Assembly: GCF_024345835.1 (NCBI RefSeq)
Contig: NZ_JAGQBW010000001.1
Coordinates: 186,001 to 250,000 of the forward strand
Reading direction: 5' to 3'
DNA length: 64,000 nt
DNA from: Synechococcus sp. HJ21-Hayes
GTDB lineage: Bacteria > Cyanobacteriota > Cyanobacteriia > PCC-6307 > Cyanobiaceae
The translations under genes and the position numbers were made by a program. A model generated the notes under the pieces. It made no database searches. It saw only the letters and a program-made list of their open reading frames with translations, and was not told where the DNA came from. Below, piece by piece: positions 44,036 to 53,528 of the stretch (within the stretch, counting starts at the first letter, position 1; each line of letters begins with the position of its first letter).

Positions 44036-44059
44036 GTCTGTATCGACGCGTTGCCTGCC

Positions 44060-44875
44060 ATGGCCCACTTCTACCAGCGCAGTTGGTTGCTGGGTGCTCT
44101 CAGCGGTGCCATATCCGTGGCGGTGCTGGGGGGAGCCGCGCTGTGCGGGATGCGTTGGTGGTGGCAGCCCTCAACGGGCGCTGTCGTCCCCGACCCGGTG
44201 TTCATCCCGGCGGCCCAGCTCTCGCCGGATGAGCTCAGCTCCTGTGCGCGGGGGCTTGGTTTGAATCCGGAATTGGCGGCTCTCGCGGATCCCACCAATT
44301 TCGGCGAGCGGCAGCGCCGGGATTGGCGCGGCCGCCCCCTGCCCCATCAGCCCAGCCTGATCGTGCTGCACGAGACCGTGATGGATCAGGCCAGCACCCT
44401 CAACCTGTTCCGCACTCCCCACCCGGCAGATGCCGATCAGGTGAGTTACCACCTTGTGATTGGACCCAATGGGGATCGTCACCGCGTGGTGCCCGATGCC
44501 AACCGTGCCTACGGCGCCGGGCAATCGGCCTTTGGCGATTTCACCCTGCAGGCCAAGCCCAGTAGCCGTGGTTCGGTCAACAACATTGCGCTCCACGTCA
44601 GCTTGGTCACGCCTGCCGATGGTCGTGGGGCCGACACCAGCGACGGCCATTCCGGTTACACGCCTGAGCAATACCGTGCACTGGCCTCCCAGGTTCTGCT
44701 GTGGCAGCACCGTTACGGCATCCCCATGAGTCGGGTCACCAGCCATGCGGCCATCGACCGCAGCCACAGCCGCTATGACCCGCGCAGTTTCCGTTGGGAT
44801 CGCTTTGATCAGGCCTATGCCAAGGCTGTGGTCAGTTGCGGGGCTTCACCACCTGGCCGAACGCACTGGCGGTGA
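44060..44875 (+). CDS. N-acetylmuramoyl-L-alanine amidase (Amidase_2), membrane-anchored
   Basis: 271 residues. A membrane anchor/signal segment at about residues 8-31 precedes the amidase domain: zinc ligands in LIVLHETV and in SHAAIDRSHSRYDP, with DQVSYHLVIGPNGDRHRVVPD between. Cleaves the amide between MurNAc and L-Ala in the periplasm. The last 44 bases overlap the convergent 305-residue gene. Next door to a cluster that includes a peptidoglycan synthase. Confidence 0.9.
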   Translation: MAHFYQRSWLLGALSGAISVAVLGGAALCGMRWWWQPSTGAVVPDPVFIPAAQLSPDELSSCARGLGLNPELAALADPTNFGERQRRDWRGRPLPHQPSLIVLHETVMDQASTLNLFRTPHPADADQVSYHLVIGPNGDRHRVVPDANRAYGAGQSAFGDFTLQAKPSSRGSVNNIALHVSLVTPADGRGADTSDGHSGYTPEQYRALASQVLLWQHRYGIPMSRVTSHAAIDRSHSRYDPRSFRWDRFDQAYAKAVVSCGASPPGRTHWR

Positions 44876-45749
44876 TCACGGCAGGAGACGCGCCAGTATC
44901 CACGCTGAAGTTGCGGGTTTCACTCTGGCTGCTGCCATCCGGGTAGAGGAAGGTCACCACCCCCTTCAGGTTCACGGTGGAGCCTGTTCGGTTGGTCTCC
45001 CGCAGGTCGGCCACGCTCACCCGCTCGAATTGCTCGAAGAAGCTGGGATCGAACTGATCGGCGGCCGCGGCGCCAAACAGCTGGCGTGCCGCTTCGCTAT
45101 TGCGGCTTGAGAGTGCGCTGTAGAGCTGCTGCACGGTGGTGATGGCTAGATCCACCGCTGCTGGATCCAGGGGCTGTTCGAGGTCTGGTGCCGGCGGCGG
45201 CAGGGCGCTTTCCCTGGGCTGTTCGCGCAGCGCTGGAGCCTCCTGGAGGGGGGTGCCCCCGGTTGGAGGGGCGAGGGCCTGCTGCTGGCGACTGAGCAGC
45301 AGCAGCCACATGAGCCCCCCTACCACGCCCACCAGCAGCACGCCGGCGATGAAGCTGAGCACGGCGACGAGACCGCGGCTGCTGCCGGCGCTGGGGGCTA
45401 AGGCTGCGCTGACTGTCGCTGTGGCTGTGCTGCCTTCACCGAGATTCAGCAGTCCGCTCACCACTGCCGCCATCCGCTGGCAGATGGCGGGGGCGAACAG
45501 CTCCTGCAGCTCCTGGTTCAGGCGTAATTGCAGGCGAGCATCAGCCTCCAGGGCTGGGGTCTGACCCACGGCGTGGCTGAAGGCGGGGGTGAGCACCAGA
45601 TACTTCAGTGCCGGTAACAGGTTGCTCTGCGACTCACCGCAGAAATCCCCCACGAGGGCCTGTAGGCGCCTGCCATCGCTGAATTGGCCCCGTTGCAGGT
45701 CGGCCAGGATCTGCCGGCGCAGGTTGGCTCCGAGCTGGTAGTCGTTCAT
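44832..45749 (-). CDS. Single-pass membrane protein of the TerY-P-like cluster, 305 residues
   Basis: N-terminal soluble helical domain (about 1-102; QLGANLRRQILADLQRGQFS, LQALVGDFCGESQSNLLPAL), a membrane segment at about 127-153, a Pro-rich linker (160-195), and a C-terminal domain of about 100 residues that looks NTF2/IMS-like (TTVQQLYSALSSRNSEAAR ... LKGVVTFLYPDGSSQSETRNF). The start codon overlaps the stop of the PP2C gene (ATGA), so it is the last gene of that unit. The role is unknown; the topology suggests it links cytoplasmic signalling to a periplasmic domain (inference). Confidence 0.8.
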   Translation of the reverse strand: MNDYQLGANLRRQILADLQRGQFSDGRRLQALVGDFCGESQSNLLPALKYLVLTPAFSHAVGQTPALEADARLQLRLNQELQELFAPAICQRMAAVVSGLLNLGEGSTATATVSAALAPSAGSSRGLVAVLSFIAGVLLVGVVGGLMWLLLLSRQQQALAPPTGGTPLQEAPALREQPRESALPPPAPDLEQPLDPAAVDLAITTVQQLYSALSSRNSEAARQLFGAAAADQFDPSFFEQFERVSVADLRETNRTGSTVNLKGVVTFLYPDGSSQSETRNFSVDTGASPAVITASAFGQVVKPRN

Positions 45750-47056
45750 GGGGCTGACGGCGGCTGAATGGACGCATTCCCGGCTGCTGGCATCTTGGCC
45801 GCTGCCGCACGGCGCTGCTTCCATTGCTGATCAAGGGCGCTCAGCAACGCTGGGCAGGCGTTCAGCTCCACCAGTGCTGGGGTGATGGCTGGGCTGGCAG
45901 TCGCGGGCACGGGCCAACTCGCCGCGATCACGGCCCCCAAGGGATCCAGCGTCGCTTGCTGGATCAAGGTCTGCCGCTGGCGTTGGCCTTGCAGCAGCTG
46001 GTCGAACTGGGCCTGCCGTTGGCTGAGGGCACTCGGGATGCGATCTGGGCTGGCGCACAACCGCTGCACCTCGGCGCTCAGGCTGGTCGCGGGAGACGCG
46101 GCCGGCTTCGGTGCTGTGATCCAGCGTTGCCACGGCTGCAGCCACCAAAGCCCGGTTCCCAGGGCCGCGGCCCCGATGCCCAGGAGTATCAGCAGGGCCA
46201 CCGGCCGGCGTTGTGGCGGCACGGGGAGCGGGGGAGGGTTGGCGAGTGCTCCCCAGCGGCCGATCGCCACGGACACATCGTCACCGCTGCCCTGGCTGGT
46301 GATCTGCGCGAGCGCCGTGTCCAGCTCATCCCGTTGACGCAGTTCCGCCAGGTGATGGCCCAGGGCCAGAAAGTCGCCATCGGTGGTGCACGATTTGCGG
46401 ACGCCATCGGTGCTCAGCACGAGGGCGAAGGGGGCGCTCCCCGGCGTGAGGGGATGCAGGGCCGCCCGCTGGGCGCACAGGGATGCGGCGCCGCCCATGC
46501 AGAGGCTGGCGGTGGCTTCTCCGCTGGCGCAGATGTCCTGTTCCTCGCTGATCAGGTCCAGGTTGCCGTCAGCGGTTCTGCGCACCAGGTCCCAGTCGCC
46601 CAGGCCCGTGTGGCCCCACCACTCCGGTGCCAGCAGCACCACCCCCAGCGTGCAGCCGTAGGTGAGCGGCGAGAACGGCTGATCGCCGCTCTCAGGCCGC
46701 TGGCGCCAGTGGCCCGCGGCCGCCTCCAACCACGCGGCCTGAATCGTTGCGGGCAGTGCGCCCGCCAGCAGCTCCAGCCAGTGGCGCTGGTCCGTGAGTG
46801 GGTGCTGCTGCAGGGCCCGCTCCACCGCCAGAACTGCCTGGTCGCAGGCCAGTTGGCTGCCCACGTCGCTGAGCCAGTAGCGCTCGCCGCCATGGCCATC
46901 GGCCACGGCCATCAGCTGCACCGTCGTGCCGCCCGGACCCAGCAGGGAGCAGGCCACGGAGGCGTCCTGGCAGGGCTTGCCCAGGCGCCGGTGGGCGGCT
47001 CCGATCACCGTGCAGCACTGGGGTGTGTCCCAGCTGCCCGTGAGCGCCCCGGTCAC
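45746..47056 (-). CDS. PP2C-type protein phosphatase with membrane segment
   Basis: 436 residues, GTG start overlapping the VWA stop (GTGA). PP2C metal ligands are visible: Asp31 in CQDASV, Asp53/His55 in ADGHGG, Asp217 in STDGV and Asp259-Asp260 in GSGDDVS. A membrane helix at about 285-306 follows the catalytic domain, and a Gln/Ala/Pro-rich part of 130 residues ends the protein. It would reverse phosphorylation by the adjacent kinase. N-terminal VIGAAHRRLGKPCQD is typical of the TerY-P phosphatases. Confidence 0.88.
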   Translation of the reverse strand: MTGALTGSWDTPQCCTVIGAAHRRLGKPCQDASVACSLLGPGGTTVQLMAVADGHGGERYWLSDVGSQLACDQAVLAVERALQQHPLTDQRHWLELLAGALPATIQAAWLEAAAGHWRQRPESGDQPFSPLTYGCTLGVVLLAPEWWGHTGLGDWDLVRRTADGNLDLISEEQDICASGEATASLCMGGAASLCAQRAALHPLTPGSAPFALVLSTDGVRKSCTTDGDFLALGHHLAELRQRDELDTALAQITSQGSGDDVSVAIGRWGALANPPPLPVPPQRRPVALLILLGIGAAALGTGLWWLQPWQRWITAPKPAASPATSLSAEVQRLCASPDRIPSALSQRQAQFDQLLQGQRQRQTLIQQATLDPLGAVIAASWPVPATASPAITPALVELNACPALLSALDQQWKQRRAAAAKMPAAGNASIQPPSAP

Positions 47057-47832
47057 CACACCAGTGGGCCGACGTCGTCGGTGGGATCCATGAGCGTGGG
47101 CGGCAGGTCCGGCAGGGGGATGTTGCCGTCCCGGCTGGAGCCGGCTATCCGGCTGGTGGGCATGGAGGCAGCACCCACCACGGCGGTGGAGGCCCACTGG
47201 ATGTATTGAGCCAGGGCTGTGGCATTGCTGGCTTGTAGGGGTCGCCGCGGCGATTTGCCCATGCCTCGAGGCATCTGACCGCTGGCACCTGGTACCTCCC
47301 CTGCCGGCAGGTTGGCCAGGGGGTCGGGGCCGATGAACTGTTGCAGCACCTCCAGATCGGCGTCATGCCCCATGGCGATCGCCAGTCGCACGGCCTTCTG
47401 GGCCCAGGGTTGGCACATCAGGGCCCCCAGGCCTGCCGAGAAGTCGTCGGTGGGCTGGCCGTCCGAGATCAGCACCAGCACCGGCGGGAGGGCCCGCTCC
47501 TCCATCGGTGGCGATTGCATCTGACCCGCCACCAGCTCCAGGGCTTCGCCCATGGCGGTGATGCCGCCGGCCTGGAGGTCGCGCCACTCCAGTTGGTCCA
47601 CCGGCGTGGGCTCGGCCAGGTGCCAGTTGGCCCGGTCGGCGAAGCTCACCGCCCGCACCAGCACTCGGGCCTCGGGATTCTGGCGCGCCACCTCGGCCAT
47701 GCCTGGCAGCGACTGACGAATCGCCTGGTTGAGGGCCTGCATCTTGCCCTGGGCCGCCATGGAGCCGGAGCAATCACAGAGATAGATGAAATGCAGGGGC
47801 CGGTTGCTGAGCCGAACGTTGGGGAAGGGCAT
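47053..47832 (-). CDS. TerY-like VWA domain protein
   Basis: 259 residues. The metal-ion-dependent adhesion site DCSGSM (Asp20, Ser22, Ser24) is followed by a Thr in GGITAMGEAL and the Asp in LISDGQPTDD, a full MIDAS. The family TerY has this short VWA architecture; it sits between a kinase and a PP2C phosphatase, as in TerY-P triads. The C-terminal 80 residues are Pro/Gly/Ser-rich and disordered, possibly a phosphorylation target. Its start lies six bases after the kinase stop. Confidence 0.87.
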   Translation of the reverse strand: MPFPNVRLSNRPLHFIYLCDCSGSMAAQGKMQALNQAIRQSLPGMAEVARQNPEARVLVRAVSFADRANWHLAEPTPVDQLEWRDLQAGGITAMGEALELVAGQMQSPPMEERALPPVLVLISDGQPTDDFSAGLGALMCQPWAQKAVRLAIAMGHDADLEVLQQFIGPDPLANLPAGEVPGASGQMPRGMGKSPRRPLQASNATALAQYIQWASTAVVGAASMPTSRIAGSSRDGNIPLPDLPPTLMDPTDDVGPLVW

Positions 47833-47838
47833 GGTGGG

Positions 47839-49170
47839 TTAGCGGATCACCTCCACCGGGCCGGCAGCGGTGCGGAGACGTTGCAGGGCCGAGAGGTTAC
47901 AGGTTTTGCCAGGGGGCACGGTTACCCTCTGGCCGTCGCTGAGTTCGGCGCTCCAGGGGGCACCGCTGAGGTTGGTGAGGCCCAGGATGGCGGTATCCGT
48001 GGGGTGTGCCACCACCTGGGCCAGGGGATGGTGCAGGTCGTGGCTAAGCAGGGGATCGAAGTGGTGCGGCTGCAGGCTGTTGTCGGCCGCGGCGGCCACC
48101 CGGCCTGCGGGCGTCTGCAGCATCACGGCGGTGGGCAGGGCACTGCCGCAGGCCCAGCAGCGTCCAGGGGTGCCCGGTTCCGGAAAGTTTTCCTGCTGGC
48201 AGTGGGGGCACAGCACCCGCTGGTCCAGGCACTGGGCGATGGCCTGCATCCATTGGCCTGTGAGGGCCCGGCGGTTGGGCTGGTGCAGGCCACTGCAGAA
48301 GGTTTGCTCAAACAGGGCCTTCAGCCGTTCCGGGTAGATGGGCCAGGTGATCAGTGCGGCAGCGTGTTCGATGGGGTCGGGGCGATTGCGGGGATCCTGG
48401 GGATCGAAGATGAATACCGGGTCTTCGCCGTAGAGGCGGCGGCGGGCAGGTTCATCCAGGCAGCGGATCGCCAGCTCCAGTTGCCCCTTGAGTGGATCGT
48501 GGCGGGTCAGCAGCCGGAAGATCAGCACGGCCAGGGAGAAGAGATCGCTGCTGGCTCCCGGCCTGGCCTTCCCCAGCAGGATCTCGGGGGCCATGAATCC
48601 GGGGGTTCCCAGCACGCTGCCGAGATCGCGGCCGTCCACGTCCACGTTGTCGTTGTCGCAGATCAGTACCCGGCCGCTGGCGGGCTCCAGGAACAGGTTG
48701 CCTAGGGAGATGTCCTTGTAGCAGAGCCCTTTGAGGTGCAGCTCGTGGAAGCTGGTCGCTAGGAAGAAGCTGGCCCGCAGCACGTTCCGCAGGCTGATCT
48801 CCAGGTTGCCGGCTGCATGGACATGGGCCCCGATGAACCCAGGGGGGCGCAGGGCCATCAGATAGCCGAAGCCAACCTCGGCCAGCTGGATCTGCTGGCG
48901 GGCTTCAGGGGTAGGCCGCAGCAGGGCGATTGGCCAGAGGAAATCGCCATTGGGAGCCCCCAGGCGAATGCTCTCCCCCAGCCGGTGCTCCAGGTGAGGG
49001 TCGCGGGCGATGCAGGCCGGGAAATACCACTTCAGAGCTAGCTGTTCGCCTCCGATTGCCACCGCGTACACCTGGCCCTGGGTGCCGCCCCCCAGGCCTC
49101 CCTGGATCTGAATCGGTTCCTTGAGGCCTTCGAAGCGAAGCGTGGCACCCTCCGGCAGGATCCAGGTCAT
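47839..49170 (-). CDS. Ser/Thr protein kinase with C-terminal zinc ribbon
   Basis: 443 residues. Kinase domain about 15-300: Gly loop GGTQGQVY, Lys47 in ALKWYF, catalytic YKDISLGNLFL with Asp153 and Asn158, DND (residues 172-174) at the place of DFG, and GTPGFMAPEILLG. A zinc ribbon (Cys321, 324, 338, 341) follows, then a C-terminal domain of about 80 residues with beta-strand character (TNLSGAPWSAELSDGQRV, VPPGKTCNL). Kinase + zinc ribbon is the TerY-P kinase layout. The start overlaps the FHA gene's stop (ATGA). The DND replaces the usual Phe-Gly but keeps the metal-binding Asp. Confidence 0.87.
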   Translation of the reverse strand: MTWILPEGATLRFEGLKEPIQIQGGLGGGTQGQVYAVAIGGEQLALKWYFPACIARDPHLEHRLGESIRLGAPNGDFLWPIALLRPTPEARQQIQLAEVGFGYLMALRPPGFIGAHVHAAGNLEISLRNVLRASFFLATSFHELHLKGLCYKDISLGNLFLEPASGRVLICDNDNVDVDGRDLGSVLGTPGFMAPEILLGKARPGASSDLFSLAVLIFRLLTRHDPLKGQLELAIRCLDEPARRRLYGEDPVFIFDPQDPRNRPDPIEHAAALITWPIYPERLKALFEQTFCSGLHQPNRRALTGQWMQAIAQCLDQRVLCPHCQQENFPEPGTPGRCWACGSALPTAVMLQTPAGRVAAAADNSLQPHHFDPLLSHDLHHPLAQVVAHPTDTAILGLTNLSGAPWSAELSDGQRVTVPPGKTCNLSALQRLRTAAGPVEVIR

Positions 49171-49853
49171 GGCTGGGGGCGGCCGGCCTGCTCGATGACC
49201 TTGCGGATGCCGTTGCGGTGAGCCAGGGCGGTGAGTCGATTGGCGAAGCTGTGGCGCATGGCTTGGCCGTCCCGCAGCACCACCACCAGGGTGTGCTGCT
49301 TGCGTGAGCCCAGCAGAATCCAGCCCACCAGGGCCGCGATTTCCAGGGGCCAGAACAGCAGCGGAAACGGCAGCAGCAGCAGCCCCCCTAAGCAGAGAAG
49401 CAGCCACCAGCTGAAGATGTGGGGATAGAGGGGCTGGCTGCGCACTACGGCGGAGCGGATCTGATCCACCGCGAGCGTGCAGCCTTCAAAGTCGATCGAT
49501 CCGGCCGTTGGCGAGGGGGCCTGACGCGTGGCTGGCTTGGGGGCCGTCAGCTGGAACACGAGCACCGGCCCTTGGCGCCCCAGCTGGATTTCATCGCCAT
49601 CGGCCACGGGCCGGCACTGGTGAATCTGCTGACCCTCCAGGTAAGTGCCGTCCTGGCTTTGCCAGTCGCACACCACCCAGCCGTGGCTGCGGGAATGGCG
49701 CACCACGGCATGGTGATCCGAGACGCCTGCGCTGCTCGCCAGGCACAGCTGGTTGCCCTTGGCCTTGCCGATGGTGAGGGGTATGGCGGCATCGAGGGAC
49801 GCCACCTTGGCGGTGTCGCTGCGCAGCACCAGCTGCGCCTGGATCGGGCTCAT
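49167..49853 (-). CDS. FHA domain protein with C-terminal membrane segments
   Basis: 228 residues. FHA fold about 24-100: IPLTIGKAKGNQLCL, VSDHHAVVRH, DWQSQDGTYLEGQQI. The canonical Arg after the Gly (usually GR) is Lys (GK). Two membrane segments follow at about 146-181 and a basic tail. FHA domains bind phosphothreonine; the membrane tail suggests it brings a phosphoprotein to the membrane. Between two small genes with ATGA overlaps on both sides. Confidence 0.85.
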   Translation of the reverse strand: MSPIQAQLVLRSDTAKVASLDAAIPLTIGKAKGNQLCLASSAGVSDHHAVVRHSRSHGWVVCDWQSQDGTYLEGQQIHQCRPVADGDEIQLGRQGPVLVFQLTAPKPATRQAPSPTAGSIDFEGCTLAVDQIRSAVVRSQPLYPHIFSWWLLLCLGGLLLLPFPLLFWPLEIAALVGWILLGSRKQHTLVVVLRDGQAMRHSFANRLTALAHRNGIRKVIEQAGRPQP

Positions 49854-50125
49854 GGATCCCCCTTGCGCCGCCGCCACCAAAGGCGCCAGTCATCGCGCAG
49901 ATCGGCCCACCAGCCGCCATCGCCCTCCCGTAACGCCACCACCCGGCCAGGGAACAGCAAGGCCTTACTGGCCAAGGCCAGGGCGATCAGCACCATCGCC
50001 AGCAGCACCCAGCCCGGGATGGCTCCCACCCAGGTGGCGGCGAAGAAGGCGCGGGTGGCGTACACGCCAATGGTGAGCGCCAGCCACAGCCGGAAAGGTT
50101 CCCAGGGGTCCCGCTGGCGCTGCAC
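49850..50125 (-). CDS. Small membrane protein at the head of the TerY-P-like cluster
   Basis: 91 residues, GTG start. Two membrane segments (about 13-33 and 36-58) followed by a charged, Trp-rich tail (WWADLRDDWRLWWRRRKGDP). No family recognised. First gene of the six-gene minus-strand unit; the divergent PBP starts 31 bases away, so both promoters must share or overlap that space. Confidence 0.7.
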   Translation of the reverse strand: MQRQRDPWEPFRLWLALTIGVYATRAFFAATWVGAIPGWVLLAMVLIALALASKALLFPGRVVALREGDGGWWADLRDDWRLWWRRRKGDP

Positions 50126-50156
50126 CGAAGGGGAAGGGGGTTGCTGGCTCTAGCCT

Positions 50157-52436
50157 ATGGCCGGGCCGATGAAGATGCCGCTGCACCGCCTCACCTCCAC
50201 GCTGGCCAGCTCGGACGTCCGCCAGGCCTGGCGCCAGTTCGCTGCGGCGTGCCTGCAGGGGCCCTGGCGCCGTCGCCCAGCCGCCATCCGGGCTGCGTGG
50301 ATGTCGCTGCGCCATCGGGAGGCTCGGCTGGAACTGTGGTCCGCAGGCCAGAAGCTGCACGACCTAACCCTCGAAAACCGGCGCTACCGCATCGGCCGTG
50401 ATCCCGCCTGTGAGCTGCCCGTGGAGGCACTGGGGCTGAGCCGGGTGCACGCCATCCTCGAGAAGCCACGCGATGCCGATCGCGACTTCACCCTGGAGGA
50501 TTTCAATTCCGCCAATGGTCTGTTTCATCGCGACCGGCGCATTCGCGCTATCCAGCTGCGCGATGGCGATGCCATTCAGTTCGGCTCGCCGCTGAAGGGT
50601 GAAGCGCCTGTGCTGCGCTACATCCACCCTCGTAGCGCCCTAGAGCAGGCTGTCCATCTGCTCGGTCTGGCGGCGCTGGCGGGCTCGGGCCTGCTGGTGA
50701 GCGGCATGCTGCTGGCCGCCAGCATCGGCGGCGGCTCCAAGATCCGTGCCATCGCCGGTCCGGTGAAGATCTACGCGGCCAACGGGCAGCAGATCGATGC
50801 CAAGGAGGGTTCGGCCACGGCCCTGCCCACCCTGCAGGCTTATCCGCGGCACCTGCGCCAGGCCCTGCTGGCCTCAGAGGAGGCACGGTTCGGCTGGAAC
50901 AGCGGGCTTGATTTGTTCGGCACCCTGCGCTCGGCCCTGCTGGGCAGTGGCGGTGGCAGTGGCCTCACCCAGCAGGTGGCGCGCCTCTATTACCCAGATG
51001 TGGGCCGCGATGTGAGCCTCACCCGCAAGGTGCGGGAGCTGTGGGTGGCGCTCCAGTTGGAGGTGGGCTTCAGCAAGAACCAGATCCTCAAGATGTATCT
51101 GGATCGGGCCTATCTGGGGCTTGGCACCGAGGGCTTTGAGCAGGCCTCACGCCTCTATTTCCACAAGTCTGCCGCTGATCTGGATGTGGCCCAGGCGGCT
51201 TTCCTGGTGGGTCTGCTGCCCAGTCCCAATGGCTATAGCCCCTGCAACCGCGAGGATCCCGAGGCTGGCCGTGACCGCCGCAATTTGGTGCTCAAGCTGA
51301 TGCATGAGCAGGGCTATCTGAGTGATCAGGCCCTGATCGATGCCCGGCGCCGGCCGCTTAACATCGATGCCTCGGCTTGCCGGGAAACCATTTTCTCCAG
51401 CTATCCGTTCTTCAGCGACTACGTCCGCGGCGAGTTGGAGGGCACCCGCTTCGGCCTCAACCTCTCCGAGCAGGAGGCCGGGGGAAACTACATGGTGGTG
51501 AGCACGATCGATCCCCGGATGCAGCAGTTGGCGCAGCAGCAACTGCAGCGTTTTCTGGAGGGGCCGGCGGCTTCCGTGGGGCTCACCCAGGGGGCCCTGA
51601 TCTCGCTCCAGATCGAGAGCGGCGACATCCTCGCCTACGTGGGTGGCGGCGACTATTCGCGCTCCAGCTTCGATCGGGTGCAGGCCCTGCGCCAGCCGGG
51701 CTCCACCTTCAAGTTGTTTCCCTTCCTGGCGGCTCTCGAGTCTGGGGTGAAGCCCAGTGATCCGATCTCCTGCGCCCCCTTCAGCTATGTGGCCGGCTGT
51801 CGCCACGGGGCCGGTAGCGTCAGCGTGGCCGATGGTTTTGCCCTCTCGGAAAACGTGGTGGCCCTGCGGCTGTCGGAGAAGGCCGGCTTCAACCAGGTGG
51901 TGCGCAAGGCCCGCCAGCTGGGTATCAGCACTCCCCTGGATGCCGATGCCAGTGCCATGCTCGGCGGCCGGGAAACCTACCTCTACGAGATGGCGCGTGC
52001 TTATGCGGTGGTGGCCAATGGCGGCCGTTCCGTGCCCATGCACGGCGTCGACAAGATCTACGACCTCGGTGTCTGTCAGTCGATCCTCAGCCTCAGCACC
52101 TGCCCGGAGCGCGGCATCACCACTCCCATTGGCGAAACTCCGCGCCAACTGATCAGCCCCGAGGTGGCAGCGAGTCTCGATGGGCTCCTGGCGGGGGTGG
52201 TGCAACGAGGCACCGGCAAGCCCGCGGCGGTGGTGGCGGATGCCCGCGGCAAGACTGGCACCACCAACAACGGGGTGGATGTGCTCTTCATCGGCTATTC
52301 CCCGGCTATGAAGATCCTCACCGCGATCTGGATGGGCAATGACGACAATCGCCCGGCTGAGGCGGCTAGTGGTGCCTTGGTGGCGGAGCTGTGGGGCCGC
52401 TACATGCAGGCTGTGGCTGCGGCGTCAGCCGGCTGA
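50157..52436 (+). CDS. Bifunctional class A penicillin-binding protein with N-terminal FHA domain
   Basis: 759 residues. FHA domain about 58-146 (YRIGRDPACELPVEALGLSR ... SANGLF), membrane anchor about 164-190, GT51 glycosyltransferase with SEEARFGWNSGLDLFG (catalytic Glu near 241-242) and GSGLTQQVARLYY, then transpeptidase with Ser516-Thr-Phe-Lys519, Ser564-Glu-Asn566 and Lys699-Thr-Gly701. It polymerises and crosslinks peptidoglycan in the periplasm while the FHA faces the cytosol and could read a phosphothreonine. ATG alternatives lie at 50169 and 50175. Divergent from the kinase/phosphatase cluster by 31 bases. Confidence 0.9.
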   Translation: MAGPMKMPLHRLTSTLASSDVRQAWRQFAAACLQGPWRRRPAAIRAAWMSLRHREARLELWSAGQKLHDLTLENRRYRIGRDPACELPVEALGLSRVHAILEKPRDADRDFTLEDFNSANGLFHRDRRIRAIQLRDGDAIQFGSPLKGEAPVLRYIHPRSALEQAVHLLGLAALAGSGLLVSGMLLAASIGGGSKIRAIAGPVKIYAANGQQIDAKEGSATALPTLQAYPRHLRQALLASEEARFGWNSGLDLFGTLRSALLGSGGGSGLTQQVARLYYPDVGRDVSLTRKVRELWVALQLEVGFSKNQILKMYLDRAYLGLGTEGFEQASRLYFHKSAADLDVAQAAFLVGLLPSPNGYSPCNREDPEAGRDRRNLVLKLMHEQGYLSDQALIDARRRPLNIDASACRETIFSSYPFFSDYVRGELEGTRFGLNLSEQEAGGNYMVVSTIDPRMQQLAQQQLQRFLEGPAASVGLTQGALISLQIESGDILAYVGGGDYSRSSFDRVQALRQPGSTFKLFPFLAALESGVKPSDPISCAPFSYVAGCRHGAGSVSVADGFALSENVVALRLSEKAGFNQVVRKARQLGISTPLDADASAMLGGRETYLYEMARAYAVVANGGRSVPMHGVDKIYDLGVCQSILSLSTCPERGITTPIGETPRQLISPEVAASLDGLLAGVVQRGTGKPAAVVADARGKTGTTNNGVDVLFIGYSPAMKILTAIWMGNDDNRPAEAASGALVAELWGRYMQAVAAASAG

Positions 52437-53528
52437 CGCCTTCAGCAAGTTCTGGCCCCAGCTGATCAGGCCCCACAACACGCCCAGTACGAAACCCCAC
52501 CACCACTGGCAGCAGAGCAGGCGCTCCAGGGGGCCACTGGCATCGGCATTGTCCTGACGGGGTAGCTGCCAGCCCAGTTGCAGGGCCCCGTATACCATGA
52601 GCAGCACCCAGGCAGGAATGGCGATTGGCCCCACGTTGAAGCTGAGCTGCCGCCAGTGCAGCATGCTCAGGCTTGCGCCCAGGGCGATGAGTGCGCTGAT
52701 GGATCCTGAGGCGCCCGACCAGGTTCTTGCTATGGCGAAGCGCTGGGCCATGACGGTGGAGAGCGTCAGGGTGGCCAGGGCTGTGAGGCTGTAGCGCAGC
52801 ACCACATCGCCCAGCTGCAGGGCTGAAGAGCCCAGCAGGATCAGCAGGGCCACCAGGTTCACCGCTGCCTCGGCTCTATTGGCATGCACCCATGGAGCCG
52901 CTAGCCAGCGCCAGGCCTGCCTGGGGTCACCAGCGGATTGCTCGTTGAGAATCCAGCTCCTCCGCCACCGTTTCAGCGGCCCCAGGGCCAGGGCCTGCAG
53001 CAGGCCCAGCACAACCACCAGCACTACGCCGCCGCTCCAGCCCAGGCCTTCAAACAGTTCGCGATCCAGCTCGCGGCTGGCCCAGCTGAGCACCAGGGCT
53101 CCCCCTGCCGCAAGGCCCAGGCCTGGGGCGAAGGGCCTCAGCTCCTGGACGATGCCTTCCCATCGCCGGGTCGCCCGCGTGGGTTTGGGCATGGGGGTGG
53201 GCTGGGCTGGCTGCCGCGGTATGGCCACGCCCGTGGCGGCTTCCAGCAGGTTGAGCAGTTCCTGCAGTACGGCGGGGGCGTAGGTGCTGGCGAGCTGCTC
53301 AGCCAGGCTGGTGAGGGCCGAGCGCTGGGCGGCGCCTTTCTGGTGCAGAGCCTGGAGCAGCAGGCGTTGGCTAGCGAGATCCCGAACCGGCCCCTTCAGG
53401 CTGTCGTCAGCTCCAAGGGCATCTACCAGGCGATTGCCCAGAGCCTGGCCGCTCTCGAGCCCAGCGCCGCCTCCCTCCAGCCAGCTCTTGAGCTGGAGTC
53501 CCAGCCGTTGCCCGGTGCCCTTCACCAC
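52425..53528 (-). CDS. Rhomboid-like membrane protein, probable pseudoprotease
   Basis: 367 residues, GTG start (two in tandem). A soluble helical N-terminus of about 125 residues precedes six or seven membrane segments. The rhomboid core is suggested by WLAAPWVHANRAEAAVNLVA (L4/TM2-like) and WSGASGSISALIALGA with the nucleophile-type Ser274 in GASG. The sixth segment reads CQWWWGFVLGVLWG where active rhomboids have AHxxGxxxG: the catalytic His is Trp342. I infer an inactive rhomboid. Converges on the PBP gene with a 12-base overlap. Confidence 0.65.
   Translation of the reverse strand: MVKGTGQRLGLQLKSWLEGGGAGLESGQALGNRLVDALGADDSLKGPVRDLASQRLLLQALHQKGAAQRSALTSLAEQLASTYAPAVLQELLNLLEAATGVAIPRQPAQPTPMPKPTRATRRWEGIVQELRPFAPGLGLAAGGALVLSWASRELDRELFEGLGWSGGVVLVVVLGLLQALALGPLKRWRRSWILNEQSAGDPRQAWRWLAAPWVHANRAEAAVNLVALLILLGSSALQLGDVVLRYSLTALATLTLSTVMAQRFAIARTWSGASGSISALIALGASLSMLHWRQLSFNVGPIAIPAWVLLMVYGALQLGWQLPRQDNADASGPLERLLCCQWWWGFVLGVLWGLISWGQNLLKASAG

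Follow-up and report, generated by a model that had tools for sequence, protein, structure and literature searches.

The locus studied here raises the question of whether a small phosphosignalling operon is wired to the synthesis of the cell wall. It lies in a 64,000-nucleotide stretch of the Synechococcus sp. HJ21-Hayes genome (contig NZ_JAGQBW010000001.1, positions 186,001 to 250,000, referred to below as the window), in which genes for a Ser/Thr kinase, a VWA protein, and a PP2C phosphatase, assigned to the TerY-P triads, stand head to head with a class A penicillin-binding protein (PBP) that carries its own FHA domain, here called FHA-PBP1. To our knowledge, little is known about the regulation of peptidoglycan synthesis in picocyanobacteria. 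The targets of TerY-P triads have so far been only hypothesised (PMC11090510). Here the triad has one obvious output, a PBP with its own phosphothreonine (pThr) reader, in a compact cassette that has moved whole between genera, and therefore both the targets of a TerY-P kinase and the gating of a class A PBP by an FHA domain become testable with seven genes.

The observations are the gene content, the fixed organisation, co-inheritance, one joint transfer, intact catalytic and pThr-contact residues, and changes in the glycosyltransferase motifs of the PBP. This set of genes suggests an undescribed switch for cell-wall growth. On balance, we lean slightly towards a phosphosignalling cassette of the TerY-P type whose dedicated output is a specialised peptidoglycan synthase; the phospho-switch itself is what we infer.

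Organisation, distribution, and transfer of the cassette

Read 5' to 3', the six minus-strand genes encode a 91-residue protein, a transmembrane (TM) protein with an FHA domain (FHA-TM), the kinase, the VWA protein, the phosphatase, and a 305-residue protein, with FHA-PBP1 diverging on the plus strand (Table 1). An earlier note on this DNA, made from its letters, had described such an arrangement with mostly overlapping genes, and the coordinates and Pfam matches agree with it: four of the five operon junctions are 4-bp ATGA/GTGA overlaps, with a 6-bp gap between kinase and VWA. The 31 bases reported between the divergent start codons are also obtained by computation; however, the first ~20 codons of the PBP are poorly conserved, which makes its start and the size of the gap uncertain. 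The arrangement itself is confirmed as real and not a product of chance, since the order and strands of six core genes are the same in 49 of 55 homologous kinase loci. Four other loci are interrupted by contig ends, and the sole true departures are two Prochlorococcus loci (L036 and L039) that contain only kinase, VWA, and PP2C.

According to the census, the kinase is present in 47 of 251 Cyanobiaceae genomes, and both kinase genomes without an adjacent FHA-PBP1 belong to one Prochlorococcus genus. The earlier note had named separation of the FHA-PBP from the triad in most relatives as grounds for dropping its proposal; the two are adjacent in 45 of the 47 genomes and were once transferred together. 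A search of the 251 genomes recovered FHA-PBP1 at E ≤ 1e-200 in 40 kinase genomes and in none without the kinase. For seven kinase genomes initially scored as lacking it, however, reading of the loci found the gene adjacent in five, and thus absence in this search is soft evidence. A complete list of the GT51 proteins of 16 genomes gives a cleaner picture: FHA-PBP1 is present in nine that have the kinase and missing from six that lack it, and Prochlorococcus G029 has the kinase, a single GT51 protein, and no FHA-PBP1. Across 339 genomes of the phylum, kinase and FHA-PBP1 are both restricted to Cyanobiaceae. As for the distant triads (L056-L084), tblastn for FHA-PBP1 gave no match.

Most loci have a common neighbourhood, atpD-rhomboid...PSRP3, and many copies of the cassette are therefore not independent. 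In L041-L046, L085, and L087 the cassette is kept while these surroundings are wholly or partly gone. In genome G101 (genus g34), FHA-PBP1 and the kinase each nest with Vulcanococcus L031 (100/98 in both trees), its second FHA-PBP, FHA-PBP2, groups with congener G034 (100/100), and no kinase match was obtained in its congeners G034, G075, and G123. The G101 cassette is located inside a ~20.3-kb island reaching from tRNA-Arg(TCT) to a second copy, 49 bp long, of the end of that tRNA (G101:C1:1388149-1408484). A gene resembling integrases (phrog_1, 1e-10) lies next to tRNA-Arg, and the site is empty in G034 and G123. Because FHA-PBP1 and the kinase are foreign to G101 and lie in an island that its congeners lack, the FHA-PBP must have entered together with the signalling genes. 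Inheritance of the cassette is mostly vertical, with one joint transfer.

The island (L093 with L170/L171) also carries several Trypsin_2 genes, a trypsin-TPR protein, and a COP23 gene. The Prochlorococcus triads (L039:5043-12705 and L036) lie between trypsin-TPR genes related to those of the island, and L039 also has a DUF2939 gene. Might the triad act on something else in these loci?

The synthase and the signalling genes

The pThr-contact residues R, S, and N of the FHA domain of FHA-PBP1 are unchanged in 51/51 orthologues, and with all three kept the domain is a candidate for the pThr recognition that the earlier note supposed; the second ground on which that note would have dropped its proposal, a domain without phosphopeptide binding, was therefore not encountered either. 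The stand-alone FHA domain claimed for the FHA-TM protein is likewise present, and its model matches the FHA domains of GarA/EmbR (VIA-align Z 16, 97-98 residues, root-mean-square deviation (rmsd) 1.7-1.8). Its pThr contacts, however, are not constant among relatives, of which only 22 of 53 keep SANGT where the Asn lies, and they are least well kept in the window, which has K, S, and D (R->K, N->D). By these residues the stand-alone domain is degenerate in the window genome; since its contacts vary, with two of the three replaced in the window, the FHA domain of the PBP is the likelier pThr reader.

Both glycosyltransferase changes listed for FHA-PBP1 in Table 1 are fixed among its orthologues, and the Asp of motif I is replaced by Glu in 29 of 51, whereas 51 other aligned cyanobacterial class A PBPs have His, Thr/Ser, and Asp at these positions. 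Both catalytic glutamates (motifs I and III) are kept, and the SxxK, SxN, and KTG transpeptidase motifs are intact. Mapped by alignment to E. coli PBP1b, the changed positions correspond to what we take to be His240, Thr267, and Asp234. Searching the open literature by residue number yielded no paper on the role of His240 or Thr267; a preprint (PMC12154710) deals with Glu and Asp in motif I. The fixed changes pose a biochemical question for which FHA-PBP2, canonical and present in the same cell, offers a clear control.

FHA-PBP fusions as such are common in cyanobacteria. FHA-PBP2 has the same domain order as FHA-PBP1 (42% identity, FHA residues kept in both) but is spread over other cyanobacterial families and has canonical glycosyltransferase motifs. 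In the tree FHA-PBP1 forms a single clade of its own (support 100/100), which sits beside the family's FHA-PBP2 with inconclusive support (90/88); this placement points to a probable duplication inside the family. Rows L142, L143, and L150 of FHA-PBP2 were left out of the final tree owing to an aberrant long branch, probably caused by a wrong frame. The window genome has only three FHA domains, those of FHA-PBP1, FHA-TM, and FHA-PBP2. The FHA-PBP2 gene is found on contig C23 (L004:3532-5739), with no triad gene among the open reading frames (ORFs) listed around it; the ORFs beside it are putatively BioY and signal peptidase II, as read from their translations.

A TerY-P triad consists of a TerY-like VWA protein, a PP2C, and a kinase with a zinc ribbon (PMC11090510, after Anantharaman et al. 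2012). In the window, too, VWA, PP2C, and Ser/Thr kinase genes are adjacent, and the kinase carries a four-cysteine zinc ribbon at its C-terminus. Compared with a TerY-P triad of the CoCoNuT type from a Raoultella plasmid, the kinase with its ribbon aligns over 241 residues at 30%, the ribbons being collinear, the VWA protein has 36% identity over 162 residues (E 4e-29), and the PP2C match is weak (E 9e-4). Thus adjacency, zinc ribbon, and homology place the three proteins in the TerY-P class to which the earlier note had assigned them. The cassette differs in adding two membrane proteins, one FHA-DUF6232 and the other of 91 residues, as well as the FHA-class A PBP, and in a PP2C that is mostly membrane-anchored. 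As for the Ter partners that the triad was said to have lost, TerD was found in none of eight genomes with the cassette or the triad, on which ground a Ter operon remnant was rejected; the neighbourhoods read in relatives have no Ter gene either, and a loss is therefore not supported. Matches to the window kinase and VWA protein occur on more than 2,000 plasmids, most of them from Enterobacterales; the Raoultella operon (L177:4112-13068) combines a DUF1887 CARF protein with TerY-P genes.

The signalling proteins keep their motifs. In an alignment of 55 orthologues the kinase G-loop, LALK, YKD..GN, DND, and APE are conserved, and no TM segment is predicted in the window kinase. The DCSGS motif of the VWA protein is kept in 52/52 orthologues, and the catalytic Asp motifs of PP2C are conserved among its orthologues. 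Most PP2C orthologues have a C-terminal membrane tail with two cysteines; it is absent in Prochlorococcus L036/L039, which are without FHA-PBP1, and also in G101 (L093).

A possible phospho-switch and its rivals

In the mechanism we propose, the soluble zinc-ribbon kinase, on a MIDAS-VWA scaffold, would phosphorylate a threonine of a membrane partner (the 91-residue, FHA-TM, or 305-residue protein), and the membrane-anchored PP2C would strip the phosphate from it. The FHA domain of FHA-PBP1 would bind the pThr and thereby position or activate the synthase at the site, while the C-terminal tail of PP2C and the NTF2-like domain of the 305-residue protein are candidate envelope sensors. Kinase and phosphatase activity, FHA-pThr binding, the sensor, the direction of regulation, and membrane topology are what we infer here. 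A bolder version, which we hold only tentatively, would wire the TerY-P module, so far known from stress and restriction settings, directly into peptidoglycan synthesis as a transferable phospho-gated switch, with its output read by the FHA domain of a class A PBP of altered glycosyltransferase and with sensing on the phosphatase side instead of a PASTA kinase.

The earlier note spoke of an undescribed wall-control system. No paper on a cyanobacterial FHA-PBP controlled by a kinase, or on the cassette, was found in the open-access literature; as a kind, however, the system is overstated as undescribed, because the actinobacterial pstP-rodA-pbpA-pknA-pknB-fhaA-fhaB locus already links a kinase, a PP2C, a pThr-reading FHA protein, and a PBP that govern wall growth (PMC6554272). 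That locus has a transmembrane PASTA kinase, a separate FHA protein, and PbpA beside RodA as its PBP, whereas the cassette has a soluble kinase with a zinc ribbon and a VWA partner, and its FHA domain forms one protein with a class A PBP. Neither a PASTA nor a RodA domain was found in the ten window proteins scanned with Pfam, and the kinase is without a TM segment. What appears to be new is the TerY-P/FHA-PBP1 cassette and its altered synthase, the idea of a kinase-phosphatase-FHA-PBP locus being already known from Actinobacteria. In type VI secretion systems, an envelope machine is turned on and off posttranslationally by PpkA, PppA, and Fha (kinase, PP2C, and FHA protein). The output of the cassette would differ in being a wall synthase, and no type VI secretion part is annotated in the stretch scanned around it.

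Several points weigh against a dedicated wall switch. In Prochlorococcus L036/L039 the triad is retained although FHA-PBP1 is missing, and it therefore can have other outputs; these loci and the G101 island both carry trypsin-like genes. With eight Pkinase and three PP2C_2 matches in the whole genome, the triad is not the sole phosphosignalling of the cell, and the signal could be set by one of the seven other Pkinase matches or removed by a second PP2C. A common promoter region may be all that links the divergent genes, and phosphorylation by the kinase and binding by the FHA domain are predicted steps.

In an explanation that we consider unlikely, the FHA domain of the PBP reads phosphoproteins of other kinases, while the triad and FHA-TM regulate some other process and have nothing in common with the PBP beyond the divergent promoter region. 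Besides the further kinases, the case of FHA-PBP2, which keeps its FHA domain with no triad gene listed nearby, speaks for it; against it, FHA-PBP1 was not found without the kinase in the genome searches and was transferred together with it. Still less probable is a mobile TerY-P stress or phage-defence module with the FHA-PBP as envelope effector and not growth regulator. In its favour, TerY-P triads are found alongside restriction systems, and one TerY-P-like module gives protection from phage (PMC11090510); plasmids carry triads of the CoCoNuT type, and the G101 cassette sits in a tRNA-Arg island with an integrase. However, inheritance is mostly vertical, most loci occupy one place beside atpD and PSRP3, and the conserved motifs of the PBP give no hint of a killing effector. 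PADLOC, moreover, returned generic kinase matches only and no listed defence system, and identity with such a system was rejected. That the genes are chance neighbours, kept together by the synteny of a young clade without a functional link, is very improbable: the common neighbourhood of most loci would allow it, but the six genes stay together in L041-L046, L085, L087, and the G101 island despite other surroundings, and the joint transfer in G101 had already weakened it.

Features of the locus and neighbouring genes

Table 1. Features of the cassette in the window (positions counted from its first nucleotide; E-values from Pfam)
Feature	Position	Strand	Remarks
305-residue single-pass protein	44832..45749	-	six-helix N-domain, TM, NTF2-like C-domain; model pLDDT 77.5
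PP2C phosphatase	45746..47056	-	TM and C-terminal tail with two cysteines; PP2C_2 E 2.7e-22; GTG start
VWA protein	47053..47832	-	intact metal ion-dependent adhesion site (MIDAS: DCSGS, T, SDG); VWA E 2e-5 to 4e-5
Soluble Hanks-type Ser/Thr kinase	47839..49170	-	C-terminal zinc ribbon; Pkinase E 7e-12; ATG start
Kinase zinc ribbon	48148..48210	-	CPHC...CWAC; C..C-C..C in 55/55 cyanobacterial relatives and most distant relatives
FHA-TM protein	49167..49853	-	FHA residues 1-103, E 2e-12; DUF6232-like residues 119-224
91-residue small membrane protein	49850..50125	-	first operon gene; GTG start; conserved RDPW.PFR N-terminus, hydrophobic segments
Gap between divergent start codons	50126..50156		31 bp
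FHA-PBP1, class A PBP with N-terminal FHA	50157..52436	+	FHA E 5e-14, Transgly E 9e-43, Transpeptidase E 7e-21
FHA domain of FHA-PBP1	50385..50585	+	pThr-contact residues in GRDP, SRVH, S-A-N-G
Glycosyltransferase motif I	50877..50906	+	EEARFGWNSG (canonical EDxxFxxHxG); H->N, N in 51/51 FHA-PBP1
Glycosyltransferase motif II	50952..50975	+	GGSGLTQQ (canonical G(A/G)STLTQQ); T->G, G in 51/51 FHA-PBP1

As for the smaller proteins, a hydrophobic TM segment is found in 52/52 orthologues of the 91-residue protein, for which the Pfam search gave no family. AlphaFold2 models FHA-TM (pLDDT 89) with a strand-rich domain after the FHA domain, into which a TM hairpin is inserted, and DUF6232 was matched in 11 of 31 family members, with a best E of 3.4e-4.

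Two genes beside the cassette were considered as members and rejected. An Amidase_2 gene (N-acetylmuramoyl-L-alanine amidase, 44051-44875, plus strand) converges on the 305-residue gene with a 44-bp overlap at the end; as a wall partner it fails in that it accompanies the cassette in one other genome only, G244 (contig L092). On the other side, a rhomboid-family gene (52425-53528, minus strand) is convergent with FHA-PBP1 and overlaps its 3' end by 12 bp, but is absent wherever the atpD neighbourhood is absent.

The 305-residue protein is accessory, its gene being found in about half of the 55 homologous loci and not in every lineage. In fold comparison its C-domain comes closest to an NTF2-like domain, that of E. 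faecium PBP5 (Z 12.5 over 109 residues, rmsd 2.5); the match is only suggestive because designed and unrelated NTF2 folds reach Z 12.1. The N-terminal ~110 residues of the rhomboid-family protein are similar to the six-helix N-domain of this family, and near the cassette of other lineages, in L087:13533-14780, L093:13128-14303, and L043/L088, the same N-domain is joined to other C-terminal parts.

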